Part shown: positions 16,439-32,849 of the stretch, piece by piece | Layout: each line of letters opens with the position of its first letter | Position numbering within the stretch: position 1 is the stretch's first letter | Assembly (NCBI GenBank): GCA_017934185.1 | Contig: JAGBJY010000031.1 | Span: forward strand, 1 to 42,699 | Source: Bacteroidales bacterium | GTDB lineage: Bacteria; Bacteroidota; Bacteroidia; Bacteroidales; UBA932 | Reading direction: 5' to 3' | Length of the DNA: 42,699 nucleotides | Program-made: the position numbers and the translations under genes | The notes under the pieces: model-generated | What the model was told of the DNA's origin: nothing | Seen by the model: the letters and a program-made list of their open reading frames with translations, nothing else | Databases searched by the model: none

Positions 16439-16450
16439 GATGACACCCCT

Positions 16451-16476
16451 GTCATTCTGAGCGATGCGAAGAATCT
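16451..16476 (+). repeat. 26-bp dispersed repeat, left copy
   Basis: This copy begins GTCATTCTGAGCG and ends GAAGAATCT. It matches the reverse complement of 33622-33647 at 25 of 26 positions. It sits just after uvrC and overlaps a small TGACA-cccc-TGTCA palindrome at 16441-16454. The two copies bracket the island plus the pnuC-like gene in inverted orientation. Confidence 0.8.
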
Positions 16477-16489
16477 TTTATCACCACAT

Positions 16490-16534
16490 ATGAACGACAA
16501 GAAATTAAACATAAGGTTCAGCGCCGTGCTGATG
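16490..16534 (+). repeat. Left copy of an imperfect 45-bp direct repeat flanking the island
   Basis: Identical to 32897-32941 at 39 of 45 positions with no gap, including 17 identical bases from the ATG. Both copies are the first 15 codons of a gene (MNDKK...FSAVLM). The right copy is native to the pnuC-like gene; here the copy is joined to a Wzy_C-family protein. Confidence 0.8.
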
Positions 16535-17830: not shown

Positions 17831-17841
17831 AAAAGAGGGTG

Positions 17842-17865
17842 TTTCCACAAAAAACATTATCTTTG
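17842..17865 (+). promoter_or_regulatory. Putative promoter before the decayed lipoprotein and first NVEALA gene
   Basis: TATCTTTG at 17858-17865 fits the -7 consensus. Upstream, TTTCC, an A-run and then CATTATCTTTG closely match the sequence at 19484-19507 before the CxxC lipoprotein. The upstream TTTC is only about 12 nt from the -7 element, not the usual 19-21. Confidence 0.5.
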
Positions 17866-17886
17866 AAAAAATAACACTGATTGATT

Positions 17887-18030
17887 ATGAATAGGAAATT
17901 GATTTTCGGTATGATGCTAATGAACATATCAAGGGGAATATAAGTACATTTTTTTGAGGCATGTGCCTTTCATTGTTTGTGTTAGGAGCTTGTGATTGGA
18001 AAAGACACAGTATTAAACAAAGTAAACAAT
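17887..18030 (+). pseudogene. Decayed 5' end of a CxxC-lipoprotein gene
   Basis: Bases 17967-18021 align without gaps to 19595-19649, the signal-peptide end of the lipoprotein encoded at 19529. In that frame they read LSLFVLGACDWKRHSIKQ against LSMLVSGGCDLKKRNIKQ (10 of 18 identical, lipobox Cys kept). The upstream part carries TAATGAACAT, as at 19527, but hits a stop after seven codons (17919-17942). The remnant then runs straight into the NVEALA gene at 18031, so the body of the lipoprotein gene is gone. This fits duplication of a promoter-lipoprotein-NVEALA module followed by deletion. Confidence 0.65.
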
Positions 18031-18309
18031 ATGAGAAAAAAGTTTATCGTATTTGCCGCCATATTACTATTGGCTTTATCCGTTGTGGGAGTCAAACGTG
18101 TCATTGCACAAAAGAATGCTAATGAGTTGTTTGATGCTAATATTGAGGCATTGGCTGATGATGAGGCTGGTGCAATCATTATTTGTTCGAAAGGGTTCTG
18201 TGGGAGATGTTTCTATGTGAAGCATGCGTGGCCCTATTATCGTTGCCTCTGGTCCGGTGATCAAACCGATTATTGTGATTGTGATAAAGTTGGACAAATC
18301 CCGGTATGA
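18031..18309 (+). CDS. NVEALA-family secreted peptide 1
   Basis: 92 residues from ATG 18031 (the frame is open from 17992, but this start matches the sister gene at 20130 base for base, MRKKFIVF). The N-terminal hydrophobic segment covers about 4-20, a polar spacer follows, then the family motif DANIEALADDE (ALA at 40-42). The part after ALA has six Cys (52, 57, 60, 72, 82, 84). NVEALA proteins are small exported Bacteroidales peptides of unknown role. ALA fits a signal-peptidase-I site, though it is farther from the membrane segment than usual. The stop overlaps the next start by ATGA. The C-terminus differs from peptides 2 and 3. Confidence 0.8.
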   Translation: MRKKFIVFAAILLLALSVVGVKRVIAQKNANELFDANIEALADDEAGAIIICSKGFCGRCFYVKHAWPYYRCLWSGDQTDYCDCDKVGQIPV

Positions 18310-19427
18310 TGAAGCAATTGTTGTTGGTTCTCGCTTTTCTGTTTTGTTTATTCTCTTGCCAACGAAAAGAGAAGACAGATGTTCTCCGCGTAGAAATTCT
18401 GGATGATGCTCTCGACACGTATTCTTTCCATGATTTTTTTGAGAAGGTTGAGATAATTATCCTTGAAGATTCCTGTTTGACTGCCAACGGGCAATTTAGT
18501 GAACCACAGTACTTGTCTGTCTGGAATGGAGGTTTCATCATATTAGACGAGAGGGATGGAACGTCCTATTCTTTCGACCCTGAGGGACTGTACCTTGGCG
18601 AAATATCAAGACGAGGCCGGGCGGAAAACGAATATAGCCTGGCTTATGGAGTTGATGTTAATGAGTCAAGTGGAATAATGACTATTCTTGACCCAAGGTC
18701 CACTCTGTATAGATATGGAATAAATGGCGAGTTTGTAGGGAAAGAACATATCGAAGGCGTCGTTGCTGTCCATGGTTTTTGCGAACAGAAAGATGCTATT
18801 GTTCTTTTCTCGGCCTCGTCTAAAGAGAACCTAAGCAAATGGGAGAACGGGGAATTGTCAAACATAAAATACAAAGCACCTTTCGACCTTAAAAATCAAT
18901 TCAATGCGCCTTATCCATTTATTGAGCATGAGGGCAATATGTATTATTATGAGGGAGCAACCGGTAAGATTTTTGCTTTGAACCTTACGGACAACATGGC
19001 CAAAGCTGTTTATTCTTGGGACTTTGGCGAACACACTGCGAAGATATCCAAACTTAAAAAAAACCGAGAAGATTTTTTTGCTACGTTAAAGGGAGACTTT
19101 TATAACTGCATCTATCCATTTTTGAATCTTACGTGGACAGAATCCGTTATGGTTGCAAATGTCCTATATCACAACAGTGAGCATAGTTTATTTTATGATT
19201 TGTCAACAGGTAAGTCTTGTCTTGTGCATTATTTTACGGAGGGTGTCCGATTTAAATTTATGACAGGATACAATAATGCTTTGTATCTGCTTACAGACCC
19301 CGAATCTCTCGATGAATTTGTTTGTTCTGAAATTTTGGATGAAGAGAATAAAGCAAGACTGAAAAAAATATATGAACATCAAGCAAATCCGATAATTCTG
19401 AAATATAGCGGGCTTCGTTTACCTTGA
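18306..19427 (+). CDS. Six-bladed beta-propeller lipoprotein
   Basis: Lipobox LFSC in MMKQLLLVLAFLFCLFSC. The body shows repeated beta-propeller strands (LSVWNGGFIILDERDGTSYS; SFDPEGLYLGEISRRGRAENEY; IMTILDPRSTLYRYGING), typical of the 6-bladed beta-propeller lipoproteins that accompany NVEALA genes in Bacteroidales. GRAENEY stands where relatives have GxGPxEY. It is translationally coupled to NVEALA peptide 1. Probable role is binding or presenting a partner in the periplasm or on the outer membrane; no enzymatic residues are evident. AT-rich codon use sets it apart from the flanking housekeeping genes. Confidence 0.82.
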   Translation: MMKQLLLVLAFLFCLFSCQRKEKTDVLRVEILDDALDTYSFHDFFEKVEIIILEDSCLTANGQFSEPQYLSVWNGGFIILDERDGTSYSFDPEGLYLGEISRRGRAENEYSLAYGVDVNESSGIMTILDPRSTLYRYGINGEFVGKEHIEGVVAVHGFCEQKDAIVLFSASSKENLSKWENGELSNIKYKAPFDLKNQFNAPYPFIEHEGNMYYYEGATGKIFALNLTDNMAKAVYSWDFGEHTAKISKLKKNREDFFATLKGDFYNCIYPFLNLTWTESVMVANVLYHNSEHSLFYDLSTGKSCLVHYFTEGVRFKFMTGYNNALYLLTDPESLDEFVCSEILDEENKARLKKIYEHQANPIILKYSGLRLP

Positions 19428-19483
19428 GATTTCACCGGTGTAAATCATAAGAGAAGACGATAAAAATATTGAAAATAAGAGGC

Positions 19484-19507
19484 TTTCAAGAAAAAACCTT
19501 ATCTTTG
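19484..19507 (+). promoter_or_regulatory. Putative promoter of the CxxC lipoprotein and NVEALA 2-3
   Basis: TATCTTTG at 19500-19507 lies 21 nt before ATG 19529. The preceding CTTTCAAG, A-run and CCTTATCTTTG mirror the sequence at 17842-17865, including the short 12-nt gap after TTTC. Confidence 0.5.
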
Positions 19508-19528
19508 TCAGGAATACACTTACAGGTA

Positions 19529-20104
19529 ATGAACATGCCAATGTCAAGCGGAAAAAAATTATCACAAACATTCACATGCGCGGCGATTTTTATTCTTTCA
19601 ATGCTTGTGTCTGGCGGGTGTGACCTAAAAAAGCGCAATATTAAACAAGCATTACAAGCATTCGAGCAGACAATCATTGCGCTTCCTTCCGATATGGGTG
19701 TTATTCAAGATGGGAAGATGTCGGAGATGACAAATCCGACAGATATTCCCATCTTGATTCGGTATGTCGGTGCGGAGGAATGCTCCAATTGTCAAATAAC
19801 CCACCTGATGGAAGAGGATACTCTATTCAGAATGGCTGAAGAATCAGGTCTATTCCAGTACATGATTATTTTGTCTCCCCCTTTTGAAGATTTGATTCAG
19901 GTTAAAGAGAACTTGATGGAAGCGCGCTTCCATCATCCGGTATATCTGGATGTCAACGGAACGTTTGAGTTGCAGAATGTTATCCCCAAAGACCGGCGGA
20001 TGCATACGTTTCTTCTTGACACAATGCGTCGCCCGATATTCGTTGGTGATCCTCTCGCCAGCGAGTCTTTGATGAACGTTTTTTGTCAAGCACTTAAGCG
20101 ATAG
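19529..20104 (+). CDS. Thioredoxin-like lipoprotein with a CSNC motif
   Basis: The frame is open from 19469, but the -7 element at 19500-19507 makes ATG 19529 the first sensible start, giving lipobox VSGGC (Cys31) and 191 residues. ILIRYVGAEECSNCQITHL (Cys85, Cys88) resembles the strand-CxxC-helix of thioredoxin folds, with HPVYLDVNGTFELQN later in the place of the substrate strands. It may oxidise, reduce or isomerise disulfides; the neighbouring NVEALA peptides have four or six Cys and are natural candidates. The fold is inferred from the motif and general layout, not from a close match. A decayed copy of its 5' end lies at 17887-18030. Confidence 0.6.
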   Translation: MNMPMSSGKKLSQTFTCAAIFILSMLVSGGCDLKKRNIKQALQAFEQTIIALPSDMGVIQDGKMSEMTNPTDIPILIRYVGAEECSNCQITHLMEEDTLFRMAEESGLFQYMIILSPPFEDLIQVKENLMEARFHHPVYLDVNGTFELQNVIPKDRRMHTFLLDTMRRPIFVGDPLASESLMNVFCQALKR

Positions 20105-20129
20105 TTAAAAACACAACTTTTAGAATTAT

Positions 20130-20393
20130 ATGAGAAAAAAGTTTATCGTATTTATCGCGTTATCATTGCTATTGGCGTCGTCTGTATGGGTCACCAAGCA
20201 GGGTGATAAACCTCGCACCGGGGAAAAGTGGTTTAATACAAATATTGAAGCTTTGGCCGACACTGAATCGGGGAAATGGCAGGATTGTTATACGCGTTTT
20301 CGTTCTGACCCGGCTTATCAAGATATCTATTGTGGGACTTGCGCGATGCTCCCAGGCAGAGCGTCAGGGCGCAGCATCTGTAACAATAAATAG
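20130..20393 (+). CDS. NVEALA-family secreted peptide 2
   Basis: 87 residues: hydrophobic segment about 4-20, spacer KQGDKPRTGEKWFNT, motif NIEALAD (ALA at 41-43), then a 44-residue tail with four Cys (53, 68, 71, 84). The tail shares the pattern GKxxxC, SDPA, YCGTC, PGR, C and NK with peptide 3. The first 24 bases of the gene are identical to those of peptide 1. It lies 25 nt after the CxxC lipoprotein and 8 nt before peptide 3. Family membership is clear; function unknown. Confidence 0.85.
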   Translation: MRKKFIVFIALSLLLASSVWVTKQGDKPRTGEKWFNTNIEALADTESGKWQDCYTRFRSDPAYQDIYCGTCAMLPGRASGRSICNNK

Positions 20394-20401
20394 GTAGTGA
20401 A

Positions 20402-20665
20402 ATGAAAGTTAGACTTCTGGTTTTCATAGTTATTACGGCTATTAGTGCTATCCTTTTTTGGAGGTCAAAGTTCTCTAACGAATTGTCTGACGGTTTTCTT
20501 TCTGCTAATGTTGAAGCCTTGGCGGACGTGGAACATGGCAAATATGTCCGCTGTTGGGAGATTATTAATAGTGACCCTGCGGACACCGTATTATATTGTG
20601 GAACGTGTACTGAAATACCGGGACGTTTCGTTGGTGCGATGAGCAATTGCAAAAACAAAAAATAG
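20402..20665 (+). CDS. NVEALA-family secreted peptide 3
   Basis: 87 residues with hydrophobic segment about 4-20 and the exact motif NVEALAD at 36-42. The tail has Cys51, 66, 69 and 83 in the same spacing as peptide 2 (C-x14-C-x2-C, then C). Shared elements are NSDPAD, YCGTC and PGR. If cleaved after ALA the mature peptide has 46 residues and is basic at its end (NCKNKK). It lies 5 nt before the beta-propeller lipoprotein gene. Likely a paralogue of peptide 2. Confidence 0.87.
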   Translation: MKVRLLVFIVITAISAILFWRSKFSNELSDGFLSANVEALADVEHGKYVRCWEIINSDPADTVLYCGTCTEIPGRFVGAMSNCKNKK

Positions 20666-20670
20666 AATAG

Positions 20671-21738
20671 ATGTCCTTTAAGTCTATATTCGGCGGGTTT
20701 GCTGTTTTGATTTTACTTTCAGGTGCAAGTTGTGAACAGGTGTCCCGGTTCTCTTTTGAGAATTCAACTCTGATTAAGACGTTTCCTGTAGAGATAAAAG
20801 AGATTCCAGAGAGCGGCATTTCAGTGCTTGACATAGATGCGACCGGCGTGCTAGGGGTCAAAATACTGAATGATATATTACTGATAAGCAGTAGAGACAA
20901 GGAACAGTGCATATCGGCTTACTTATTCAGTGGCGAAAAGTATTTAAAGTCTTTTCTGGCAACGGGGAGGGGGCCGGGGGAGGTTCTCTATACTCCTTAT
21001 ATTTCCTGGCTTTCGTTTTACAGCCTTGGAGATACGACGCAATGTATGGGTTTTTACGACTTTAAAGGAGGCTATTTTGAGTGTAATATTCCAGCATCCC
21101 TTGCGGCCGGATCAATGATAGGGGAACAAAAGGTGGCATCGTTATCGGTATCATCCGGGGCACGATATTTTAGAATTAATGCAGACTCATTGCTTTGTCG
21201 TAAAAGTAATGATAAAGGAACGGGGTATGTTCGTTTTATCACTGATAAACGTGGAGAGCGAATGTCGCATCCTTCCATGGAAGACTTGAATCGTTTCTCA
21301 TCTTCTTTTCCCAATGATTTATCCACTCTGATAATGGTCAATGAAAAGGCTAACCGAATTGTGGAATTAGGATCGGGCCTTCCTGTAATTCACCTTTATT
21401 CAATACATGGAAGTTATGCAAAATCGTTGCACATAGGAGAATACGCAGAAATTTCTAATATAGAAAGTAACGATGGCACTATTCGAAAGCGGTACTACTA
21501 TGATGCAAAGCAGTTTGAGGAGGGTTTTGCCGGCTTGTTCTTAAACTGCACGAATGAACAAATCGACGAGAATGATTTTCCAAACCCAGAAGTGCATGTG
21601 TTTTCTTGGACGGGAGAACCGATAGCAAGGATACGGTTGCCGATAAGGGCTCTCAGTTTTGATATAGATTATAGTAACCGAATGCTTTATCTTGTTGATG
21701 AGGAAACAGAGCAGATTTTGTTATGTAAATGGGGCTGA
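20671..21738 (+). CDS. TolB-like beta-propeller lipoprotein (BF3164-like)
   Basis: Signal peptide with lipobox GASC (Cys21). Beta-propeller strands and the family sign SFLATGRGPGEV are present; later blades read ARYFRINADSLLCRKS and VHVFSWTGEPIARIRL. The closing strand MLYLVDEETEQILLCKW returns to blade one. Such propellers are regular neighbours of NVEALA genes. It starts 5 nt after NVEALA peptide 3 and ends 7 nt before the outer-membrane channel gene, joining the peptide part and the RND part into one transcript. Suggested role: docking factor for the peptides or the exporter (inference). Confidence 0.8.
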   Translation: MSFKSIFGGFAVLILLSGASCEQVSRFSFENSTLIKTFPVEIKEIPESGISVLDIDATGVLGVKILNDILLISSRDKEQCISAYLFSGEKYLKSFLATGRGPGEVLYTPYISWLSFYSLGDTTQCMGFYDFKGGYFECNIPASLAAGSMIGEQKVASLSVSSGARYFRINADSLLCRKSNDKGTGYVRFITDKRGERMSHPSMEDLNRFSSSFPNDLSTLIMVNEKANRIVELGSGLPVIHLYSIHGSYAKSLHIGEYAEISNIESNDGTIRKRYYYDAKQFEEGFAGLFLNCTNEQIDENDFPNPEVHVFSWTGEPIARIRLPIRALSFDIDYSNRMLYLVDEETEQILLCKWG

Positions 21739-21745
21739 ATATCGC

Positions 21746-23221
21746 ATGATCATACGCCATACAGTTATTTTAATCCTCGGAATCATGTTGACTGGCCGGA
21801 TTTCCGCCCAGGAGATGACCCTGAACCAGGCCGTGGCACAGGCGAGGGCCGGTTCCGTAGCGGCGCTTGAGGCTAGGCAGGCATTCATATCATCGTATTG
21901 GGCATGGCGGGCATACAGGGCCAGCCGTCTGCCTGCTTTATATCTGTATGGCAACCTTGGCAATTTCAACCGCTCCCTCACATTGCTGCAAAATCCTGAA
22001 GACGGGACCATGAAGTATGTGAGCACTAACAATCTCCAGAATGGAGTTGGCTTGCAGGCCCGCCAAAACATAGTTGCTACGGGCGGAACACTGGATATCT
22101 ATACGGACTTGAACCGGATAGACCAGTTCGGGGCCGTCAAGGGAATTACCTGGTACAGCCAGCCCATAACCCTGTCTTATCGTCAGCCGCTTTTCGCATA
22201 CAACCCGTTCAAATGGGATAAACTCATTGAACCTAAGGAATATGAAAAAGGGCGAAGGGCATATATTGATGCCATGGAACAGATAAGCGTTGATGCTGCC
22301 GCTGCTTTCTTTTCGCTTTTGACGGCTTTCGAGGACGAGAGGACAGCACGGGAGAATTATGAGAGTACCGGACGTATGTGCGAAATTGCCCGTGAGCGGC
22401 TGCGGTTAGGATCGGTTACGCGGGATGAATATCTTCAGATAGAACTTCGGGTGCTCAATGACAGCATTGCCATCAATGAGTGCGCTACCCGTGTGCGGGA
22501 GGCGCAGATGATGCTGAATTCCCTATTGGGTTACGATGAATCCCGCCAGATAATCCCCGTGTTGGAAGAAACGCTGCCGACATGTCAGGCCGACTTTGAA
22601 CAGGTGCTGGACAAGGCCTTGTCCAATTCCCGTTTCAAAATTGACAATGAAATTAACCTACTGAACGCCCGATCGGCCGTGGAGAAAGCTAAAGCGGAAG
22701 GGGGTATTTCTATGTCGTTGAATGCCCGTTTCGGTCTGTCCAAGTCCGGAATTACATTTCCCGAGGCCTATGCCAATCCGTTGGATCAGGAAGTGTTCGG
22801 TCTGAGTTTCTCCATTCCTATTTTTGACTGGGGACAGGCGCGTGGCCGGATAGAAAAAGCCCGAGCAGCCGAGGAAGTGGCCAAGGCTCAGGTGCGGCAG
22901 AGCGAGAACGATTTCCGCAGGCAAATTTTTTCAGTGGTGGGCCAGTTCAACAAGCAGAGCCAGCAATGCTCCGTTTCGCGTCGCGCGGCCATTATTGCCC
23001 GTGAGCGGCATGAGCTGGTCATGGACAAGTTTCGTGGCGGAACGGCATCGGTTCTGGAACTTAACACAGCACGTGCCGAAAGCGATGCTGCCCGGCGGCA
23101 GTATATCACCGACATCGGCAATTTCTGGAATTATTATTACACGCTCAGACAATGTGCTCTCTTTGACCTTATTTCGGGGGAGGACCTTGCTGTCAATGAA
23201 GAAGAATTGATTGGAAAATGA
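21746..23221 (+). CDS. TolC-family outer-membrane channel
   Basis: ATG 21746 gives a signal peptide ending RISAQ; upstream in-frame ATGs overlap the previous gene. The mature protein has two long helical repeats typical of outer-membrane efflux proteins (EMTLNQAVAQARAGS at the start; AFFSLLTAFEDERTARENYE; and in the second repeat VFGLSFSIPIFDWGQARGRI). It would form the trimeric exit duct for the two RND permeases encoded downstream. About 490 residues, a normal length. It overlaps the next start by ATGA. There is no dedicated regulator nearby. Confidence 0.92.
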   Translation: MIIRHTVILILGIMLTGRISAQEMTLNQAVAQARAGSVAALEARQAFISSYWAWRAYRASRLPALYLYGNLGNFNRSLTLLQNPEDGTMKYVSTNNLQNGVGLQARQNIVATGGTLDIYTDLNRIDQFGAVKGITWYSQPITLSYRQPLFAYNPFKWDKLIEPKEYEKGRRAYIDAMEQISVDAAAAFFSLLTAFEDERTARENYESTGRMCEIARERLRLGSVTRDEYLQIELRVLNDSIAINECATRVREAQMMLNSLLGYDESRQIIPVLEETLPTCQADFEQVLDKALSNSRFKIDNEINLLNARSAVEKAKAEGGISMSLNARFGLSKSGITFPEAYANPLDQEVFGLSFSIPIFDWGQARGRIEKARAAEEVAKAQVRQSENDFRRQIFSVVGQFNKQSQQCSVSRRAAIIARERHELVMDKFRGGTASVLELNTARAESDAARRQYITDIGNFWNYYYTLRQCALFDLISGEDLAVNEEELIGK

Positions 23222-24291
23222 CACTCAACCCATCCATATTCCTGGCTTCGTTGTTGCTTCTTTCGGCCTGTGCCGGTACCGGAAAGAAAACGGAAGAAAA
23301 CAATGCACGCCTTCAGCAGTTGCCAGAGGTTAACAAGGTGGAAGTGATAACACTGCAACGAGCCGATTTCTCCCGCCAGGTGTTGTCTAACGGTAAACTC
23401 TCTGCTGCAGCCAAGGCCTGTCTTGCGTTTCGTTCCGGCGGTACGCTACAGACGGTCAATGTCCGCAATGGGCAGCGCGTAAAGGCCGGAGATGTGCTGG
23501 CAAAGGTTTCCCGGGAGGACTTGGCATTGGCCGTAGAGTCGGCCCGCATTGCCCTGCAGAAGGCCGAAATGGACCTCTATGATTATCTGGTGGGGCAGGG
23601 ATATCCGGCCAGGGATACCTCTTCCATTCCGGGGGACCTCCTTGCCATGGCAAAGATGCGCAGCGGCTACAGTGTCGCACGAAATGCTCTTGCCCGTGCC
23701 GAGTTTGACTTGAACGGCACGGTTCTCAAGGCTCCTTTCAGCGGTCGGGTGGCCGATATTCGGCTGCGCCGCTACGACCTTGCGGGAAGCGATTCTTTCT
23801 GTACGCTGGTTGATGACAGCGCATTCGATGTGGATTTCAGTATCATGGAATCCGAGTACGGATTCGTCCGCGAGGGACTTTCCGTAAAGGTAACGCCCTT
23901 TGCCGGAGACGCACAGGTGTATATGGGGCAGATAACGGCAGTGAGCCCAACAGTGGACAGCTATGGCCAGATAATGGTTCGTGCCCGGATCAAGGGCTCG
24001 GCCGGGCTTATTGACGGGATGAATGTGCGCATTTGTGTGGAGCAAAAAATGCCCGGACAGCTTGTTGTTCCCCGCAGTGCCGTTGTCATTCGCGACAATC
24101 TGGACGTCCTGTTTACGTATTCTGATGACGGAAAAGCTCACTGGATCTATGTCAATATCCTTGCTTCCAATGGTGAAAGTCATGTGGTTGAGGCCAATAC
24201 AGACCGGGGTGCCCAGCTGTTGGAAGGTGACAGGGTAATCGTGAGCGGAAACTTGAATTTGGCTGACGGATCGTCCGTTACGCTTAAATAG
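23218..24291 (+). CDS. RND membrane-fusion protein (periplasmic adaptor), lipoprotein
   Basis: Lipobox LSAC (Cys18). The order of an RND adaptor is visible: split lipoyl domain (SGGTLQTVNVRNGQRVKAGD, VLAKV, then LKAPFSGRVADIRLRRYDLA), a helical hairpin at about 110-155, a beta-barrel (VDFSIMESEYGFVREGLSVKV is one strand set) and a membrane-proximal domain (LVVPRSAVVIRDN). It links the inner-membrane pumps to TolC. It is coupled to tolC by ATGA and lies 5 nt before the first permease. Only one adaptor serves two permeases here. Confidence 0.93.
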   Translation: MTLNPSIFLASLLLLSACAGTGKKTEENNARLQQLPEVNKVEVITLQRADFSRQVLSNGKLSAAAKACLAFRSGGTLQTVNVRNGQRVKAGDVLAKVSREDLALAVESARIALQKAEMDLYDYLVGQGYPARDTSSIPGDLLAMAKMRSGYSVARNALARAEFDLNGTVLKAPFSGRVADIRLRRYDLAGSDSFCTLVDDSAFDVDFSIMESEYGFVREGLSVKVTPFAGDAQVYMGQITAVSPTVDSYGQIMVRARIKGSAGLIDGMNVRICVEQKMPGQLVVPRSAVVIRDNLDVLFTYSDDGKAHWIYVNILASNGESHVVEANTDRGAQLLEGDRVIVSGNLNLADGSSVTLK

Positions 24292-24296
24292 TTACT

Positions 24297-27200
24297 ATGT
24301 TAAGAAGGCTTTTGGACAGACCGGTAGCTGTTACCATGGGCGTACTCGTGGTGCTCATCCTTGGCCTTGTATCCCTGCGCCAGCTCCCTGTTTCCTTGAT
24401 TCCTGAGGTGGATATTCCCTACATTACCGTGCAGGCCGCGGCGGTATCGTTGTCGGCCAGGGAAATCGAAGAAAGCGTGGTGAAGCCGCTTCGTGAGCAA
24501 CTAATACAGGTGAACGGGTTGGAAGACCTTGTGGCCGAATCCAAGGATGGTAGCGGAGTCATCCGGCTCAGTTTTCCGCACGGTGCCGACATGGACTTTG
24601 TCTTTATCGAGGTAAATGAAAAGATTGACCGGGCAATGGCGGCACTTCCCCGGATAGACCGTCCGCGGGTGTTCAGGGCGGGAGCGGGGGACCTGCCTAC
24701 CTTCTTCGTGGATGTGACACGCTCCGACGGCGGTGATTTCCTGCAGTTGAGCCGGTTTTGCCGCGAGGTCATTGCAAGACGAATCGAGCAGTTACCAGAG
24801 GTAGCCATGGCGGACATCAGCGGAACGGTGGAAGAACAGATTCTGGTACTTCCCCGTGAGGACAAACTCTTCCAGGCCGGGATGACTTTGCGGCAGTTTG
24901 AGGACGCTATCGCTTCGGCTAATATACGTATTGGGGCACTAACAATCCGCGACGGTGCCTATCGCTATCAGGTGAAGTTTGATGCCCGTATAGGCGGCCC
25001 GGAAGATATCGCTGCCATCTGGCTCAAATGTGGCGACCGGCTTTTGCAGGTGGGAGACCTGGCCGATGTCACCGTAACGGGCATCAAGCGCACGGGTGGA
25101 GTCCGCTCGAACGGAGAAGCGGCGGTGACGTTGGCGGTGATTAAACAGAGCGAGACCCGGATGTCGCGCCTCAAAGAGGCCATCGGAGACCTTCTGAACC
25201 AGTTCGAGCAGGATTACCCGCAGTTGTCTTTCAAGCTTACCCGCGATCAGACAGCGCTTCTGGCTTTTACCATCCGGAATCTGTTCTATAATATTATTCT
25301 GGGTATATTGCTGGCAGGTATCGTAATCTTTCTCTTCCTGAAAAATATCCGGAATTCGGCTCTGGTATTTCTGACCATGCCAACCGCCCTGGTATTTTCC
25401 ATGTTGCTGTTCCGTCTTGTCGGCCTGTCCTTGAACATCATCTCTCTCTCGGGTCTCTTGCTTGGCGTGGGGATGATGGCAGATAATTCCATTATCCTCA
25501 TAGACAATATCACGGCCAGATGGCAACGGAAAGAGAATCTTCGGGATGCCGTCCTTGAGGGAACATGGGAGGTGATGGGACCGATGCTCAGCTCCGTTCT
25601 CACAACCTGCGCCGTTTTTATGCCTCTTATTTTTGTGCGTGGAATGGCTGGAGCGCTTTTTTATGAAGAGGCCATGGCCATTACTCTTGTTCTGGGCAGT
25701 TCCTATTTGGTGACGGTAATCGTTATTCCGGTTTACTATTACTGGTGGTATAAATCCGAATCTGCCTTTCATGCCATGTCCTTCATGGGACGCTTTTCCT
25801 TGGAAGGTCCGCTATTGCGCTGGGATGAACGGCGGATAAACTGGTGGCTGGACCACGGCAATGTGGCATGGCTGCTGATTGGCGTTTCTGCTGTAGGGGC
25901 GATATCTTGTTTTGTTGGGATGGAAAGGCAACGTCTTCCCGACCTTCGTGCGACGGAAAGCATTCTGAAAGTAGATTGGAACGACCGTCTTTCCTTCGAG
26001 GAGAACGAACGGCGCACGGCTGTATTGGAGAATCTTCTGAAAGAGGATGCGTTACAATTTTCTTCCTTGGTTGGGGAGCAGCAGTTCGTGCTGCGGCACA
26101 GCGGAGAACAAGGGGGCTCGGAGACGCAGGTATATTTCCGCTGTCCGGACGGTAAGTCTTTGGAAGTAGTTCAATCTGGTCTCTCTGCTTATCTAAACGC
26201 ACATGCTCCGGATGCAATATGGCACTTTGAACCGGCTGGAAATATTTTTGATCAGGTCTTTGCCCGAACGGAGGCACCCATAGTGGCAAAACTCCGTCCC
26301 GTAAAGAATCCTGAGGTTCGTCTGGAAACCTTGCGTCCGATAGTGGCTTCCGTTCGGGAGCGTATTCCGCAGCTGTCTGTGCCGCCAGTTTCCGCCCGAA
26401 CGGATATCCTTTTTACGGCCGACCCCGAAAAGATGGCCCTCTACGACATTTCGTACAACGACCTGGTTCTGGCTCTCAGAACAGCCCTCAACGAGAACAG
26501 GATATTTGATGTCGTGCAAGGGACCCGGATTCTGCCCGTAGTGACGGGCGTTGGCCGGGAAGACCTGTCCCGTATCCTTTCGGAGACTTTTATTGAAAGT
26601 GACAAGCGCCAAATTCCCGTTTCTGTCCTCATGCGGCAAGATTTTACTGAAGACTTGAAAACCATTGTATCCGGGTCTGACGGAAATTACTATCCGCTCC
26701 CTCTTCAGGTGGACGGACGGAATGCCGTTCGTGTGATGAATGCTTTGCGGGAGGTCATACGCGAGGACGGTGCTTACGACGTGAGTTTCGATGGTTCGTG
26801 GTTTTCCAACCGGCAGATGGCCTGGGATTTGTTCATGGTGCTGCTGGTGGCCGTCGCCCTTCTCTATTTGATTTTGTCCGCACAGTTCGAGTCCCTTTTG
26901 CAGCCGGTAATCATCCTGTTGGAAATTGTCGTAGATATTTTTGGTGCACTGCTGGTACTGTGGGTGATGGATGTCAGTTTGAATCTGATGTCGCTCATCG
27001 GTCTTGTGGTGGTGACAGGAATTGTCATCAACGATTCCATTCTGAAAATTGACACCATCAATCGCTTGGAAAGCGGCGGCATGGAATTGCGCAGGGCGGT
27101 TCTGATGGCCTCCCGACGTCGGTTCAAGGCCATCGTTATGACTTCTCTCACCACAATTCTTGCGGTTGCGCCTTTCCTTTCTCGCGGCTCCATGGGGGCC

Positions 27201-27320
27201 GATCTCCAGTACCCTTTGTCGCTGGTCATTATCGTCGGCATGTCCGTTGGAACGCTGGTGAGCCTCTTTATTGTGCCGTCGCTGTATTATTCTATTCATG
27301 GAAAGAGGCGGTATACATAG
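24297..27320 (+). CDS. RND permease 1
   Basis: 1007 residues, a normal length for a proton-driven RND pump, with the start LLDRPVAVTMGVLVVLILGL, RQLPVSLIPEVDIPYI, two large periplasmic loops and twelve membrane segments. The TM4 motif reads MMADNSIILIDN with one acidic residue (Asp396) where AcrB has an Asp pair; this is common in VDNS-type pumps. TM10 region: LIGLVVVTGIVINDSILKID. It would work with the adaptor and TolC. Its last 23 bases overlap the second permease gene, so the two are translationally linked. Substrate unknown; context suggests NVEALA peptides or a toxic compound. Confidence 0.92.
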   Translation: MLRRLLDRPVAVTMGVLVVLILGLVSLRQLPVSLIPEVDIPYITVQAAAVSLSAREIEESVVKPLREQLIQVNGLEDLVAESKDGSGVIRLSFPHGADMDFVFIEVNEKIDRAMAALPRIDRPRVFRAGAGDLPTFFVDVTRSDGGDFLQLSRFCREVIARRIEQLPEVAMADISGTVEEQILVLPREDKLFQAGMTLRQFEDAIASANIRIGALTIRDGAYRYQVKFDARIGGPEDIAAIWLKCGDRLLQVGDLADVTVTGIKRTGGVRSNGEAAVTLAVIKQSETRMSRLKEAIGDLLNQFEQDYPQLSFKLTRDQTALLAFTIRNLFYNIILGILLAGIVIFLFLKNIRNSALVFLTMPTALVFSMLLFRLVGLSLNIISLSGLLLGVGMMADNSIILIDNITARWQRKENLRDAVLEGTWEVMGPMLSSVLTTCAVFMPLIFVRGMAGALFYEEAMAITLVLGSSYLVTVIVIPVYYYWWYKSESAFHAMSFMGRFSLEGPLLRWDERRINWWLDHGNVAWLLIGVSAVGAISCFVGMERQRLPDLRATESILKVDWNDRLSFEENERRTAVLENLLKEDALQFSSLVGEQQFVLRHSGEQGGSETQVYFRCPDGKSLEVVQSGLSAYLNAHAPDAIWHFEPAGNIFDQVFARTEAPIVAKLRPVKNPEVRLETLRPIVASVRERIPQLSVPPVSARTDILFTADPEKMALYDISYNDLVLALRTALNENRIFDVVQGTRILPVVTGVGREDLSRILSETFIESDKRQIPVSVLMRQDFTEDLKTIVSGSDGNYYPLPLQVDGRNAVRVMNALREVIREDGAYDVSFDGSWFSNRQMAWDLFMVLLVAVALLYLILSAQFESLLQPVIILLEIVVDIFGALLVLWVMDVSLNLMSLIGLVVVTGIVINDSILKIDTINRLESGGMELRRAVLMASRRRFKAIVMTSLTTILAVAPFLSRGSMGADLQYPLSLVIIVGMSVGTLVSLFIVPSLYYSIHGKRRYT

Positions 27321-30300
27321 ATTCCGGCTTTCCCCGTTTTCGGTAGTGCTGGTAATGGTGGCTATGTCGATAGTGGGCATAGCCTGCTTGCCCATGCTGA
27401 AAGTCCAGTATGCACCGTCCGCTCCCGGACGCAGTATTACGGTGGCCTATACGTTGTCCGATGCGTCTCCCGAAATCATAGAAGCGGAGGCTACATCCCG
27501 CATTGAGGGCATCCTTTCCCTCATCCGGGGGACGACCGGAGTGGCCTCTGTCTCAAAAAAGGGGTCTGGGAGTGTCGCGGTGTCATTCCAGAAGGGAACG
27601 GATATGGATGCGGCCCGCTTTGAGGTTGCCTCTGCTATTCGGAATATATATCCTTCGCTGCCCCGGGAAATGAGCTACCCCACCATACGGCTTTCCTCTG
27701 GAGGAAATCGAGGTGCGGCAGATATTTCCTTCTTTCTCAAGGGTCCCCTGCCTTCGCAGGAAATAGAAAGCTATGCCAGGGAACATATCCTGCCAGCCGT
27801 TTCCCGTATCGGAGGTGTGGAGAGCGTTTCGCTCAGCGGAGCCACACCCTATCACTGGGTCATCACTTTTGATGCGGCCAGAGCCACGTCGCTTGGCATT
27901 TCGGCTAGTGACATCGTTTCAGCGTTTGACAATGCTTTTTTCGTTCGGGTGTTGGGTATGGCCGACACCCCTGACGGAGACATGGTGGTCCGGTTGTCAG
28001 GAAGCAGGGAGCCAGATTTCGGCGGGGTTTTCATCAAGAAGGTGGGCGGCCGGACTGTTTTTCTTCGCGACATTGCCACCTGGCGTTATGAAGAGTCCCT
28101 TCCCCGTTCTTATTTCAGGGTAAATGGACTCAACACCATTACAGTCGCTGTCTCGGTGGCTGAAAATGCCAATCTTATCTCCACGGCCCGGTCTGTGCAT
28201 GAAGAGATGTTGCGTCTGAGGGCCTCTTTTCCCGAAGAAATATCGGCGAGTACTGCATATGATGCTTCCGAGTATGTGCGCGAAGAACTGAGAAAGATTT
28301 ATTTTCGCACAGGACTTTGCCTGGTCATTCTGCTGCTGTTTGTCTTTCTTGTGACAAGGTCCTGGCGCTATTTGCTTATCATTGCATCGACGCTGGCCGT
28401 CAATATTTTATCGTCCCTTGCCATCTATGCCCTGGCGGGAATTCCCATTCATGTCTATACGCTTGCTGGTATCACGGTTTCACTGGGAATGGTCATTGAC
28501 ACATCTATCGTGATGGCTGACCATTTTGGGTATTGGAAGGACAGAGGGGTGTTTCCGGCACTTTTGGCGGCGACTGTAACGACGGTTTGTGCTCTTTTGG
28601 CGCTATTTCTGTTACCCGAAAGCGAACGGGCCAACCTGACGGATTTCATTTGGGTTATTGCACTCAATCTTTCACTATCCTTGCTTGTGGCGGCACTGTT
28701 CATCCCCTCACTCATGTACTATCTACCAGTGAATGGCACTCGCAAGGTCTCTGTCAAGCACGGTAGGATTGCCGTGCGGGGGAATCTGCTGCATCGGCGG
28801 TATATCCGGTGGGGTATCAGTCACCGTTGGGTGCTGCTTGTCCTTTTTGTGTTGGTATTCGGACTTCCGACTTGCCTCATTCCGGATACAGTCAACTGGG
28901 AACCGTATAAGAAAAACCGTGCAGTCATTGACAAGTGGACAGGAGCCTCTTTTGGCCTTTTTTTCAGGTCTGTAGAACATGCGAATTTCTATGCAGTTCC
29001 GGAGCGTAAGCAATTGTACATTCGAGCGGGCATGCCGGAGGGATGCACTGTAAACCAGCTCAATGAGGTGGTAAAGTCCATGGAGAAATTCCTGACAGGG
29101 TTCGATGAAATACAGTCTTTTACGACCAGTATCTATAGTTATGACAACGCCACCATCGTCGTGTATTTCAAACCAGAATATGAGCAGGATGTTTTTCCGC
29201 TGCGGTTGAAGTCGCAGGTGACAGCCATGGCCATCCATTTCGGAGGTGCAAACTGGAGCGTTTATGGATTGGACGAACAGGGCTTTGACAACAATATCGT
29301 ATCATTTTACAAGGCGCACCGGATTTCTTTGACAGGATATAACTTTCATGACCTGCTCCGTTATTCTCAAATCCTTGTTGACCACCTGTCTACGAACCGA
29401 CGGGTGTCCGGACCGGAAATCTGGAGCGCAGGCTATGAAGGTGGGCCGGATACAGAGTATAACCTGGATTATGATTTCGGGGCCATGATGGCGGCAGGAA
29501 TCAATCCGTATCACTATTATGGCGTGCTGTCATCCCGCCTGTGTGATCAGAACATCGGTACCGTTCTGATAGACGGAACGACCGCTGACGTCGTTCTGCA
29601 CTCTTCTGAGGCCGATTCTTTCGATCTCTGGCATGTACTGCATGAGCCCGTTCAGGCGGATTCGCACCAGGTGGCGCTCTCTTCTGTGGGAAGTATTGCC
29701 AAGAAGCGTTCCGGTATTGACATCCGGAGAGTAAATCAGTCTTATCTGGTGGACGTGTGCTTTGATTTCGTGGGGAGTTATCCGCTTGCCAGACAGGCCA
29801 TTACGGAAGCGGTGGATTACATGAACGGGGAAGTGCTTCCGATAGGATATAAGGCCGAGAATCCGCAGACGGGCTGGTTTCAGCAACATAAGGAGCGCTA
29901 TTTGTGGCTCCTGTTGCTTATTATCGGCATTATCTTCGTTCTGCTGTCCATGTCCTTCGATTCGCTTCGCCTTCCGCTTTCAATCATCTTCATGATACCG
30001 GTTTCCTTTATTGGCCTTTTTCTGGTGTTCGGTTTGTCGGGGGCGGCATTTGATCAGGGAGGATTTGCGTCCTTTGTGATGCTCTGCGGGATTGTGGTGA
30101 ATGCAGGTATCTACATGCTTTCTGCTTTCGGGAAGTTCGGCGGTTTTTCTGCCAGAGGCCAAGCAAATAGGATTCGAATCTATGTCAAGGCCTTCAATCA
30201 TAAAATAACCCCCATTCTGCTAACCGTCCTCTCTACGGCCCTGGGTCTGATTCCTTTTCTGACGGATGGCCCGGAGGTGGTTTTTTGGTTTGATTTTGCC

Positions 30301-30381
30301 CTCGGATCCATCGGCGGACTCCTCTTCTCAGTCCTGGCGCTCGTTTTTTATCTTCCAGTCTTTGCCATTAGAAGAAAATGA
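27298..30381 (+). CDS. RND permease 2
   Basis: ATG 27298 (MERGGIHRF) lies inside the end of permease 1; an earlier ATG at 27271 gives a larger overlap. 1027 residues with the usual RND pattern (MLKVQYAPSAPGRSITVAYT; TM4 LGMVIDTSIVMADH with Asp401; ASFVMLCGIVVNAGIYML near TM10). It is clearly divergent from permease 1, so the pair may form a heterotrimer as in MdtB-MdtC, or serve separately. Its last bases overlap the signal-peptidase fusion gene by ATGA, tying the pump to a peptide-processing enzyme. Confidence 0.9.
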   Translation: MERGGIHRFRLSPFSVVLVMVAMSIVGIACLPMLKVQYAPSAPGRSITVAYTLSDASPEIIEAEATSRIEGILSLIRGTTGVASVSKKGSGSVAVSFQKGTDMDAARFEVASAIRNIYPSLPREMSYPTIRLSSGGNRGAADISFFLKGPLPSQEIESYAREHILPAVSRIGGVESVSLSGATPYHWVITFDAARATSLGISASDIVSAFDNAFFVRVLGMADTPDGDMVVRLSGSREPDFGGVFIKKVGGRTVFLRDIATWRYEESLPRSYFRVNGLNTITVAVSVAENANLISTARSVHEEMLRLRASFPEEISASTAYDASEYVREELRKIYFRTGLCLVILLLFVFLVTRSWRYLLIIASTLAVNILSSLAIYALAGIPIHVYTLAGITVSLGMVIDTSIVMADHFGYWKDRGVFPALLAATVTTVCALLALFLLPESERANLTDFIWVIALNLSLSLLVAALFIPSLMYYLPVNGTRKVSVKHGRIAVRGNLLHRRYIRWGISHRWVLLVLFVLVFGLPTCLIPDTVNWEPYKKNRAVIDKWTGASFGLFFRSVEHANFYAVPERKQLYIRAGMPEGCTVNQLNEVVKSMEKFLTGFDEIQSFTTSIYSYDNATIVVYFKPEYEQDVFPLRLKSQVTAMAIHFGGANWSVYGLDEQGFDNNIVSFYKAHRISLTGYNFHDLLRYSQILVDHLSTNRRVSGPEIWSAGYEGGPDTEYNLDYDFGAMMAAGINPYHYYGVLSSRLCDQNIGTVLIDGTTADVVLHSSEADSFDLWHVLHEPVQADSHQVALSSVGSIAKKRSGIDIRRVNQSYLVDVCFDFVGSYPLARQAITEAVDYMNGEVLPIGYKAENPQTGWFQQHKERYLWLLLLIIGIIFVLLSMSFDSLRLPLSIIFMIPVSFIGLFLVFGLSGAAFDQGGFASFVMLCGIVVNAGIYMLSAFGKFGGFSARGQANRIRIYVKAFNHKITPILLTVLSTALGLIPFLTDGPEVVFWFDFALGSIGGLLFSVLALVFYLPVFAIRRK

Positions 30382-32849
30382 TGAAATCAGTTTTGAAACA
30401 GGTTCGGTCAATCGTTATTCTGCTTTTCGCCGCTCTCGTTGCCGTTTGTTTCCTGCGGCTGTTTGCCGGGAAGTTTTATGTGGGAGGAAATTCTATGGAA
30501 CCAAGTCTGTATGCCGGGGAGCGTTTGTGGGTGGACCGTCTGACCGGAAGACTCTCTCCCGGGGACATTGCCGTCTTTCACAGTCCGGAAGGAGCAGGAC
30601 GCGAAGTTATCCGCTCAAGAAGAAACTATGTCTATACCAAGCGGTGCATCGGTGTCCCCGGTGACACCGTGGGAATCAAGAATGGTTTTTATTACAATGC
30701 ATCTCTGCCGGGCCGCCTGCTGATGCCTCCGGATGGACAGGCCCTTCTCTCGCTGACTCCGGACAGCCTGCTGGCGGAAAGGGGTGTTTGGATGCCTGCA
30801 CTTCCGGCCACGGGATGGAGCATCCGGGATTTCGGGCCGATGCTCGTTCCCCGTGCGGGGTGCTCACTTCGGTTAGATTCTCTCACCTGTCGCGTGTACG
30901 CAAAGGCCATTGAGTTTGAAAGTGGACGCTGGCCCCTTCCCGGCGAGGAGTACACATTCACGAGCGACTGGTATTTTTTCGGCGGTGACAATGTACAGAA
31001 TTCTAGGGACAGTCGTTATATCGGCTTGATTCCCAAATCTTTCGTTGTCGGACGAGTTGTTTGGCCGCGCAGAAATGCTGTTTTGCGAAAAAAGGATCGT
31101 GCGTTGGAGAAGGCATTGGTTTATGCAGGAGACAACCGTGGTGCACTTGAAGCAGTCCTTTATCATTATCGTGGAGATAAACGTAAGTTGAGGGCGGCTG
31201 AATGGCTTGTGCGGAATATGCCAGGCCATTACGGTTATGCCCCTTTTGAAGGACTGGATAGCGTCAAAGCGGTGCTCGCCGATTTGAAAGCCGGAAAGAA
31301 TGTTCCCATGGAACGGATTCATCGATGGCAAGATGTCGATATGCGGGGTTACCAGAAGAAGTATGATTCAAAAGTCATAACATCGTCTTTCTTGATTTCC
31401 AACATTGATCAGGCTTTTGAAGCCTTGGATGTCCGTCCATGGAACCGGAATCTTAGTGAGAACGACTTTTATGAACTGATTCTTCCGTACCGGGTGGGGG
31501 ATGAACCCTTGGGAATAGATTGGCGACGTCTCTATCAACAACGATATGCATGGGTTTTGGATTCTCTATATACGGGGAAAGATGTCGTCGGTGCTATAGA
31601 TGCCATTCATTCACAAATCGAAGGCGACTATTTTCAGTACAACACATACTTCCAGCCACCTAGTTTGGGACCGGATTTTCTGATGAACACTCGTATAGGA
31701 GTGTGTAAGGAAATCTGTGAATTCACGTTATACGTCATGCGAGCTTTGGGCATTCCCGTTGCAACGGATAACAATGCCATGCGTTCGGTCCATTCATGGA
31801 ATACGGTATCGGATACTACGGGGAAATACGAACTTTTCTGGATGGACCAGTATAAAGGAACGAGAATATCCCGTGGGGGTGATGATGGACGGATTAAAGG
31901 GAAAGTGTACAGAAGTACTTTTGCGAGACCATACAAAAAGGATGTTTCGGCAGATTATTTTGGTCGGTCCCGCCTTCTTGTTCCTTTCAAAGGGAAGACG
32001 CCGGTATGGATGGCCCTTTTTTCGCAGTCGGAGTGGTTCCCGGCTGAGCGGGTTAAAAGCATAGGCTCCCTGGCGGTCTTTTCCGATGTAGAACCCGGAC
32101 TAGCTTTTATACCCATGGCTGGAGGGAAAGTGGCTGGCTATCCAGTCGCTTTGGAGGCAAGGGGTGGTAAGTCCTTGCGTTTTGTTCCAGACCATCGTCA
32201 CCTTACTGAAGTAAAGGTATCCAGAAAAACACGTTTGCGGGAACGGATAGTCCGTATGATGTCCGAAAGCATAGGGGTTACTTTTGATGTGGCGGACAAC
32301 CCTGATATCCATTGTTCCCGAACTATAGGAATCTGCAAGGCTCCACAAGGTAATTATAACTATATTTCCGTCTCTGATACCATTCCTTTCCGTTTTCTCA
32401 GAATCAGCCCACAGCCGGGGTCTGTTCTCCAGATGGCTGAGGTAAGGTTGTTTGCCGACATGCAGTGCCGGGATACTGTCCGCGCCTGCCGAATATTGGG
32501 CCCGGAAGAGTCGTACCTTATGACCGATGATGATGAACTCTCCTATTATCTGGCGGGGAACGAAGACACTCCCGTTATTCTGGACCTTGGGAAGCCACAA
32601 CGGGTTTCCGTAATAGAATGGGTCCCACGGAACGATGACAATTTCATTCGGCATGGGGACAAGTATGAATTGTTGTATCAGGATGGGCGACACGGCTGGA
32701 AATGTGTAGGAACACAGGTGGCGTCCGATACCATCTTGGTTTTCACGGGTGTGCCATCGGGTGCGCTGCTTCGCCTGCATGATTTGACCCGGGGAAAAGA
32801 GGAAGAGGTATTCACCATATCCGTTTACGGCGAACAGGTGTTTCGATAG
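30378..32849 (+). CDS. Signal peptidase I - transglutaminase-like - discoidin-like fusion protein
   Basis: 823 residues. One N-terminal membrane span (about 11-30) leads to an S26 signal peptidase I domain: GNSMEPSL with Ser39, YTKRCIGVPGD with Lys88, and the late boxes FFGGDN (201-205) and SRDSRYIG. Then comes a transglutaminase/cysteine-protease-like domain with RIGVCKE (Cys443), HSWN (His472) and FWMD (Asp490), a complete triad. The C-terminal part (about 660-823) looks like an F5/8C discoidin domain (FRFLRISPQPGSVLQMAEVR; PVILDLGKPQRVSVIEWVPR). All three domains should face the periplasm. The combination is unusual. It is the last gene of the operon. I infer that it cleaves after the ALA of the NVEALA peptides and may act further on them. 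Confidence 0.88.
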   Translation: MMKSVLKQVRSIVILLFAALVAVCFLRLFAGKFYVGGNSMEPSLYAGERLWVDRLTGRLSPGDIAVFHSPEGAGREVIRSRRNYVYTKRCIGVPGDTVGIKNGFYYNASLPGRLLMPPDGQALLSLTPDSLLAERGVWMPALPATGWSIRDFGPMLVPRAGCSLRLDSLTCRVYAKAIEFESGRWPLPGEEYTFTSDWYFFGGDNVQNSRDSRYIGLIPKSFVVGRVVWPRRNAVLRKKDRALEKALVYAGDNRGALEAVLYHYRGDKRKLRAAEWLVRNMPGHYGYAPFEGLDSVKAVLADLKAGKNVPMERIHRWQDVDMRGYQKKYDSKVITSSFLISNIDQAFEALDVRPWNRNLSENDFYELILPYRVGDEPLGIDWRRLYQQRYAWVLDSLYTGKDVVGAIDAIHSQIEGDYFQYNTYFQPPSLGPDFLMNTRIGVCKEICEFTLYVMRALGIPVATDNNAMRSVHSWNTVSDTTGKYELFWMDQYKGTRISRGGDDGRIKGKVYRSTFARPYKKDVSADYFGRSRLLVPFKGKTPVWMALFSQSEWFPAERVKSIGSLAVFSDVEPGLAFIPMAGGKVAGYPVALEARGGKSLRFVPDHRHLTEVKVSRKTRLRERIVRMMSESIGVTFDVADNPDIHCSRTIGICKAPQGNYNYISVSDTIPFRFLRISPQPGSVLQMAEVRLFADMQCRDTVRACRILGPEESYLMTDDDELSYYLAGNEDTPVILDLGKPQRVSVIEWVPRNDDNFIRHGDKYELLYQDGRHGWKCVGTQVASDTILVFTGVPSGALLRLHDLTRGKEEEVFTISVYGEQVFR

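Follow-up and report, generated by a model that had tools for sequence, protein, structure and literature searches.

A candidate maturation and export system for NVEALA-leader peptides in Bacteroidales

A contig of a Bacteroidales bacterium (GenBank assembly GCA_017934185.1, JAGBJY010000031.1, positions 1 to 42,699; this whole stretch of 42,699 nucleotides is called the window below) carries three genes for small peptides with the NVEALA leader motif. They lie in one gene set with a protease of the signal peptidase family S26, a transglutaminase-like (TG) domain fused to it, a CxxC lipoprotein, a Wzy_C membrane protein, propeller lipoproteins and a TolC-RND exporter. We found that this gene set is a real, conserved system across many gut and related bacteria. 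Its parts, their co-occurrence, their linkage and the conserved active-site residues are read directly from the sequences. We propose that the set is dedicated to maturing and exporting NVEALA-leader peptides, a reading to which we assign a probability of about 0.62. The support covers the gene system; it is from the genes that we infer the chemistry of cutting, oxidation and export.

Gene set of the window

The whole set lies on the plus strand between 16490 and 32849, in the following order:

16490..17830, plus strand: Wzy_C (O-antigen-ligase-like) membrane protein with a C-terminal TPR-like part (Pfam Wzy_C, 66 bits)
18031..18309, plus strand: NVEALA precursor 1 (NV1), predicted cut after residue 42, core of 50 aa with 6 Cys (PF14055, 28.0 bits)
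18306..19427, plus strand: PROP1, six-bladed propeller lipoprotein (DUF5128), partner of NV1, whose gene it overlaps by ATGA (PF17170, 78.4 bits)
19529..20104, plus strand: thioredoxin-like CxxC lipoprotein (conserved CxxC, weak profile match to thioredoxin-like structures)
20130..20393, plus strand: NVEALA precursor 2 (NV2), predicted cut after residue 43, core of 44 aa with 4 Cys (PF14055, 21.6 bits, below the cut-off)
20402..20665, plus strand: NVEALA precursor 3 (NV3), predicted cut after residue 41, core of 46 aa with 4 Cys (PF14055, 27.4 bits)
20671..21738, plus strand: PROP2, propeller-like lipoprotein, partner of NV3 (TolB_like, weak, 22.7 bits against a cut-off of 29.2)
21749..23221, plus strand: TolC-type outer-membrane channel, OEP family (PF02321, 117 bits)
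23218..24291, plus strand: periplasmic adaptor lipoprotein, RND_mfp family (TIGR01730, 137.8 bits, above the cut-off)
24297..27320, plus strand: RND permease 1 (RND1), ACR_tran family (PF00873, 458 bits)
27298..30381, plus strand: RND permease 2 (RND2), ACR_tran family (PF00873, 318 bits)
30378..32849, plus strand: S26 signal-peptidase-like protease with a transglutaminase-like domain and an F5/8-C/CBM6-like end, 823 aa (PF10502, 89 bits)

The NVEALA, propeller, CxxC, TolC, adaptor, RND and S26/TG genes listed in an earlier note on this DNA are all there, in the order and on the strand it gave. That note had let the set begin at 18031, which is too late, as the Wzy_C-TPR gene at 16490-17830 also belongs to it. 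From 20130 onwards the genes follow closely upon one another, with gaps of 8, 5, 10 and 5 nt and 4-nt ATGA overlaps at 23218 and 30378; such short gaps and overlaps had been described correctly, but the 23-nt overlap of the two permease genes was absent from the earlier list.

Co-occurrence and linkage of the genes in other genomes

Our survey covered 392 Bacteroidales genomes, all at least 90% complete except that of the window, which was included at 86%. NVEALA matches were found in 29 of them and the special S26 (the clade of the window's protease) in 21 (E up to 1.6e-57, the next matches being at 3e-41); 43 have the Wzy_C-TPR protein and 80 a permease of the RND2 clade. The earlier note had set co-occurrence as a test that could overturn its proposal, and the genes co-occur well beyond chance. 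NVEALA was present in 19 of the 21 genomes with the special S26 (p=4e-23), the Wzy_C-TPR protein in 24 of the 29 NVEALA genomes, and the RND2 clade in 26 of these 29, as against 54 of the 363 genomes without NVEALA, with Fisher p values for the three overlaps between 6e-17 and 4e-23. When the genomes were collapsed to 204 genera, RND2 was found in 18 (p 3e-9) and S26 in 12 (p 1e-12) of the 20 NVEALA genera. Fisher tests take genomes as independent, and the collapse to genera lessens the effect of kinship without removing it. The thresholds for S26 (about 1e-57) and RND2 (1e-45) were set after the scores of earlier searches or of the same table had been seen. For each genome only the best candidates were scored (up to 15 NVEALA, 6 S26, 4 Wzy_C and 2 RND2), so that copies may be missed; the divergent S26 genes of two loci (L092 and L098; loci and genomes carry our own L and G numbers) did escape the genome search.

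The genes are also physically linked. Of the 19 genomes that have both NVEALA and S26 genes, 14 carry them within 25 kb on one contig; for S26 with Wzy_C-TPR the count is 18 of 19, and for S26 with RND2 it is 15 of 19. The linkage count used 44 Wzy_C rows (E up to 1.1e-69, weaker rows left out), by which 23 rather than 24 genomes have both NVEALA and Wzy_C-TPR; the genome and genus lists behind the co-occurrence, linkage and genus tests were transcribed by hand from tables. On co-occurrence, linkage and conserved residues, the earlier interpretation of these genes as one system thus stands; it has to be narrowed with regard to the fusion, and it had overlooked both the Wzy_C-TPR protein and the pairing of NVEALA peptides with propellers.

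Among 61 related genomes, that of the window included, five have an NVEALA match. The genome G012 (L038, L050) carries, within about 23 kb, the S26-TG fusion, the CxxC gene, three NVEALA genes, Wzy_C, both permeases, the adaptor and TolC, together with lipoproteins of propeller size. Another (G013) has a stand-alone S26 gene overlapping the Wzy_C gene, along with NVEALA, CxxC, the RND pair, the adaptor and TolC. In G046 the S26 and TG genes are adjacent, with two stop codons between them, and the NVEALA gene is on another contig, while in G036 one contig carries NVEALA and CxxC and a second one the RND pair with TolC. More widely, full or near-full contiguous sets occur in several genera, with differing gene order. 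Among the named organisms, for which the first 40 of 80 loci were mapped, the set was found in Phocaeicola vulgatus ATCC 8482 (with linked genes; locus L155, at about 82-102 kb of NC_009614), P. massiliensis, Sphingobacterium haloxyli, Petrimonas sp. IBARAKI (the locus stops in the adaptor) and Bacteroides cutis (the locus stops in RND1). Beyond Bacteroidales NVEALA is rare: 237 other genomes gave two weak matches below the cut-off, and a Sphingobacterium genome (L122) carries the set.

Leaders and cores of the NVEALA peptides

Against the Pfam cut-off of 27 bits for PF14055, NV1 (28.0) and NV3 (27.4) score above it, and NV2 (21.6) falls below it but bears the motif. In each peptide the motif follows an N-terminal hydrophobic segment, as NIEALA at residues 37-42 in NV1, NIEALA at 38-43 in NV2 and NVEALA at 36-41 in NV3. 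These three matches are the only ones found in the window genome. With a leader model derived from 70 strict examples, we retrieved 112 small open reading frames (ORFs) out of 12353 candidates, 111 after removal of near-copies; the 112 come from loci chosen for holding NVEALA or system genes, and the model was trained on 70 that are alike. Counts of sites and Cys use 97 of the 111 peptides, 14 without a recognisable site having been dropped.

The predicted site has A in 77, S in 11, T in 5, G in 3 and C in 1 of the 97 peptides at position -1, A in 91 at -3 and E in 83 at +3, figures which are partly a product of the motif used for finding the peptides. The small -1 residue and the Ala at -3 fit a putative signal peptidase site. 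The leader is 40-45 aa long in 85 of 97 peptides, and the predicted site lies a median of 24 residues beyond the hydrophobic window; in ordinary signal peptides the cut site is much nearer to the hydrophobic segment. The number of core Cys is even in 76 and odd in 21 peptides (p 9e-9, related peptides being taken as independent). Leaders are far more alike within a genome than between genomes (0.50 vs 0.17, with a maximum of 0.225 in 500 shuffles), and cores only slightly so (0.135 vs 0.113, maximum shuffle 0.129). Uniform leaders and varied cores are the pattern that would be expected if one processing machine served many cargoes.

Two loci carry long series of precursors. Locus L148 of Prevotella aff. 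ruminicola Tc2-24 has seven at 15689-20544, five of them in a row at 18715-20544, with near-identical leaders ending in NVEALS (one of the seven ends in NVEALC) and differing cores; L065 has nine.

Pairing of the peptides with propeller lipoproteins

Another gene on the same strand starts within 400 nt downstream of 107 of the 112 NVEALA genes, and 87 of these neighbours are of propeller size. Among the 85 distinct downstream proteins that were scanned, TolB_like matched 54, DUF5128 40 and DUF4221 4; as the matches overlap and the union of the families was not given, at least 54 of the 85 are six-bladed propellers. Three other scanned neighbours are further proteins of the system, namely CxxC (L135, L155) and S26 (L119).

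We examined 77 NVEALA-propeller pairs for a match between the two partners. When the 20 closest cross-genome core pairs were taken, the propellers of 15 were in the top 2% of similarity, a count that within-genome shuffling of partners did not bring above 12 of 20 in 2000 trials; the most similar leaders gave no such effect. Over the whole set of 2856 cross-genome pairs, core and propeller similarity are uncorrelated (rho 0.0005), and the leader-propeller correlation is slightly above its shuffles (rho 0.06, which 9 of 1000 attained). The test on the closest cores shows that core and propeller appear to be kept as a unit. Joint inheritance explains this effect as well as binding does, so it is evidence of pairing and not of binding. 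Most likely, the propeller lipoprotein would bind the neighbouring peptide, be it as receptor, immunity protein or chaperone.

Processing proteins

The 823-aa fusion protein matches Peptidase_S26 at 89 bits; its Transglut_core (18 against 23) and F5/8 C (16.2 against 28.2) matches are below threshold, and the TG protein ends in a part with a match to CBM6 domains of solved structures (E 1.5e-7). In all conservation counts of this section the relatives were picked by profile score, which favours conserved sites. The catalytic Ser39 of the S26 part is present in 67 of 68 relatives and Lys88 in 68 of 68. In the TG part C203 and H232 (Cys443 and His472 of the fusion) are each kept in 48 of 50, and the Asp column is not clear. 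Like type I signal peptidase, the protein thus has an S26 domain, a Ser/Lys dyad and, at -1 and -3 of its predicted site, small residues; unlike it, it is a clade-specific second enzyme, is fused to TG here, and would cut about 24 aa past the hydrophobic segment. A separate S26 protein, encoded on another contig of the window genome (G000:C21), is taken for the probable housekeeping signal peptidase. The earlier note had proposed a dedicated S26/TG fusion. This is true of the window genome (G000) and of G012, which belongs to the same genus; in the other mapped loci S26 and TG are separate genes, which makes fusion just one of the ways in which the two partner enzymes are arranged. We count it as Rosetta-stone evidence for a putative shared function.

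In the CxxC lipoprotein each Cys is kept in 52 of 54 relatives and the lipobox Cys in 48 of 54. A Pfam scan of this protein gave no significant match; its profile weakly matches solved thioredoxin-like proteins (best E 0.0019). As far as the portions of PMC6671954 available to us tell, a general machinery for disulfide formation is lacking in Bacteroides, which gives a dedicated CxxC protein its meaning here.

Relatives of the Wzy_C-TPR protein stand beside the special S26 in many genomes. It shares with WaaL (7tpg) the Wzy_C domain and the aligned Arg, which is kept in 59 of 60 relatives, but HAHN of WaaL aligns with AFNE, the protein has a TPR-like tail and its gene is linked to peptide genes. 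In 56 of 60 relatives Phe stands in place of the motif His. This His we take to be the catalytic residue. Because of its replacement the protein was not filed as an O-antigen ligase, an identity that was considered and dropped; no polysaccharide gene was seen among the cluster proteins scanned. In one locus (L096, 808-4973) a LANC_like gene stands beside Wzy_C-TPR and S26-like genes.

The RND pair and the cargo of its clade

The proton relay of AcrB-type (HAE-1) RND proteins consists of D407, D408 and K940, according to the portions of PMC8277102 available to us. In RND1 and its relatives, D407 is kept in 53 of 53, D408 is replaced by N or S in 53 of 53 and K940 by N in 53 of 53; for RND2 the corresponding figures are 39 of 40, 40 of 40 (N, T or S) and 40 of 40 (N). 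Three comparison RND proteins have both Asp in 3 of 3 and the Lys in 2 of 3. Neither RND1 nor RND2 therefore has an AcrB-type relay. RND1 relatives have an invariant, displaced Lys in transmembrane segment 10 (53 of 53) and an Asp (52 of 53) a few residues on; RND2, which lacks such a Lys, may be a passive partner. In combining two different permeases, one adaptor and a TolC-type channel, the exporter resembles the MdtABC-type pumps as described in the same portions of PMC8277102. It differs from them in that the permeases reach 263 and 151 bits with the MdtC model, whose cut-off is far higher, in that the equivalents of D408 and K940 are lost, and in that its neighbours are peptides and peptide-processing proteins. 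Multidrug efflux as a main role was considered and dropped.

We also read 20 loci of the RND2 clade, of which 19 belong to genomes that gave no NVEALA match. DUF5128 was found in 15 and TolB_like in 5 of 23 lipoproteins selected from these loci, and in 7 of the 20 a crude filter picked out a small ORF with Cys and a hydrophobic N-terminal segment (the case of L100 is doubtful). In two genomes, G348 and G389, a TIGR04148 radical SAM peptide maturase and a TIGR04150 pseudo-rSAM protein are encoded beside the RND pair and adaptor (L099, 2981-5436; L115, 16148-18627), for which reason the cargo of the clade is plausibly a peptide. The propellers, small ORFs and maturases of these loci point to a wider RND clade that would carry peptides. 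One RND2 match (G066:C93:22733) lies in an open frame of 24439 aa and is probably a contig artefact.

Proposed mechanism

On this basis, one may propose that the precursor would enter the inner membrane by the Sec pathway and stay anchored there through its hydrophobic segment. The special S26, and not the housekeeping signal peptidase, would then recognise N-[VI]-E-A-L-A|x-x-E about 24 residues past that segment, and its cut after ALA would release a core of 28-85 aa, whose disulfides would be made by the thioredoxin-like CxxC lipoprotein. The transglutaminase-like Cys/His enzyme (protease-fused here) and the Wzy_C-TPR protein might act on the core or dock it, in a manner we leave unspecified. 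Finally, the adaptor, the RND pair and TolC would pump the folded peptide out.

If true, a peptide family known in Pfam by nothing but its motif would acquire its maker, its folder and its way out of the cell, and peptide export in Gram-negative bacteria would gain an RND-driven, signal-peptidase-processed route. Gut commensals, Phocaeicola vulgatus among them, would have an undescribed means of sending out peptides as signals or weapons. Together with the large set of peptide-partner pairs, it would open peptide signalling or competition in Bacteroidales to direct testing.

Several observations weigh against this proposal. The special S26 is missing at the threshold used in 10 of the 29 NVEALA genomes and the RND clade in three, and one genome (G242) has NVEALA without S26, Wzy_C-TPR or the RND2 clade. 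NVEALA and RND2 genes lie within 25 kb in just 13 of the 26 genomes with both, partly because contigs are short. In the single-contig genome G390, S26 is far from the RND pair and both are far from the Pfam NVEALA matches, although the leader model adds a weak precursor about 6 kb from its S26 (L068). The RND clade is present in 54 genomes without an NVEALA match and would there have other cargo or other peptides. As for the peptides, 14 of the 111 lack a recognisable site, the site statistics owe something to the motif, and 21 of 97 cores have odd Cys counts. Finally, both permeases lack the D408 and K940 of AcrB.

Relation to bacteroidetocins and radical SAM systems

The nearest described system is the bacteroidetocin region, which, in the portions of PMC6671954 available to us, encodes a transmembrane protein, the peptide, a thiol oxidoreductase and a peptidase-containing ABC transporter. 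Bacteroidetocins (class IIf, Bacteroidales) are likewise small ribosomal Cys peptides with a removable leader, and a thiol oxidoreductase and an exporter lie in one region, as far as the available portions of PMC6671954 and PMC8546649 tell. The window differs in its leader of about 42 aa with a hydrophobic segment, its predicted cut at ALA and its S26-like protease, and it has S26 and RND-TolC in place of the peptidase-ABC transporter of those descriptions. Membership in class IIf, for which a GG leader and a double-glycine peptidase on the ABC transporter would be expected, was rejected: the predicted leaders end in ALA and not GG, and no ABC transporter was found among the 13 proteins scanned.

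The radical SAM maturase systems with TIGR04148 and TIGR04150 (G348, G389) share the RND1/RND2/adaptor clade with the window, but the window's leader type differs. A GG-Bacteroidales radical SAM system was rejected as well, as the scan of the 13 cluster and flank proteins gave no radical SAM domain. In the literature searched, which covered a minor part of the subscription papers and no bioRxiv preprints, the word NVEALA was absent, and no such gene set was described among the papers listed, also with PF14055, DUF5128 and propeller terms.

Possible roles of the peptides

What such peptides would be for is a separate matter from the machinery. We tentatively suggest a peptide communication system of Bacteroidota, in which leader-matched, core-diversified disulfide peptides would be processed by a private signal peptidase, leave through an RND pair whose proton relay is rewired and meet cognate propellers that feed a two-component system or give immunity. 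The exported cores might be signals that are bound by the propeller lipoprotein and read by a two-component system. Here the peptide-propeller pairing is joined by the finding of a divergently transcribed histidine kinase gene beside seven of the 112 NVEALA genes (L063, L064, L068, L071, L091, L093 and L122), next to which a response regulator was found by search in three (L064, L068, L091) and by eye in two more. Six of the seven cores have just two Cys, placed in a short loop, and family assignments are confirmed for the kinases of L080 and L063 and for the regulator of L080. These kinases suggest signalling for at least a subset of the peptides. As they stand beside only seven of 112 genes, with none adjoining the window's peptides, and as their sensing of a peptide is putative, we hold this role possible for the family but would not rely on it; since it concerns purpose, it is compatible with maturation and export as proposed above. 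Alternatively, the peptides might be bacteriocins and the paired propeller lipoprotein their immunity protein. The cores are Cys-rich and of bacteriocin size, they come in diversified sets (seven in L148, nine in L065), and a partner gene usually follows each precursor; the four-gene bacteroidetocin region, as given in the available portions of PMC6671954, likewise has a thiol oxidoreductase and an exporter. Yet the leader is not of the GG type, and in the row of L148 the next gene is mostly another precursor and not a propeller. Moreover, we know of no immunity type made of propeller lipoproteins, and we regard the bacteriocin role as rather unlikely.

Two further explanations would deny the peptides their place as cargo. 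The RND-TolC and Wzy_C-like proteins might serve a glycan or lipid pathway of the envelope, or drug efflux, with the NVEALA proteins as linked regulators or sensors. The Wzy_C domain itself and the NVEALA-free genomes with the RND clade would agree with this, but the 13 cluster and flank proteins scanned include no glycosyltransferase, and the WaaL motif His has mostly become Phe. At the RND loci, the small Cys ORFs (7 of 20, by the crude filter), the DUF5128 lipoproteins (15 of the 23 selected) and the peptide maturases beside the pump in two genomes argue in the same direction, which makes an envelope or efflux role improbable. The genes might also have come together by chance, or by hitch-hiking on a mobile AT-rich island, without any shared function. 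The low GC content of the peptide-propeller part would suit an island. However, the association spans 20 genera with differing gene order, and neither the S26-TG fusion nor the similarity match of cores and propellers would be expected of mere passengers; we consider hitch-hiking very improbable. Chance synteny was dropped, as it is made unlikely by the co-occurrence in genomes and genera and by the 25-kb linkage.

Flanks, base composition and putative promoters

The ORF on the left flank is, by our reading, presumably uvrC, and on the right flank there is a PnuC-type gene (match to the NMN_transporter family). The GC content is about 40% at 18-21 kb, which is the peptide-propeller part, as against 55-60% in the left flank; the dip lies within 16500-22000, and the RND genes have about 50-54%.

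Two matches to a Bacteroidales-type -7 box were found in the set:

17858..17865, plus strand: box TATCTTTG, possible promoter upstream of NV1 (weak pattern match)
19500..19507, plus strand: second TATCTTTG box, possible promoter of the CxxC gene and the genes downstream (pattern match)

The TATCTTTG pattern occurs 26 times in the window against 17.4 expected, a number reached by 1 of 100 shuffles, which is weak evidence. The CxxC ORF opens at a TTG at 19469, and the ATG at 19529 follows the box at 19500; the protein probably starts at this ATG, behind the TATCTTTG box. The elements upstream of NV1 (17836-17865) and of the CxxC gene (19480-19507) are similar, and both end in TTATCTTTG.

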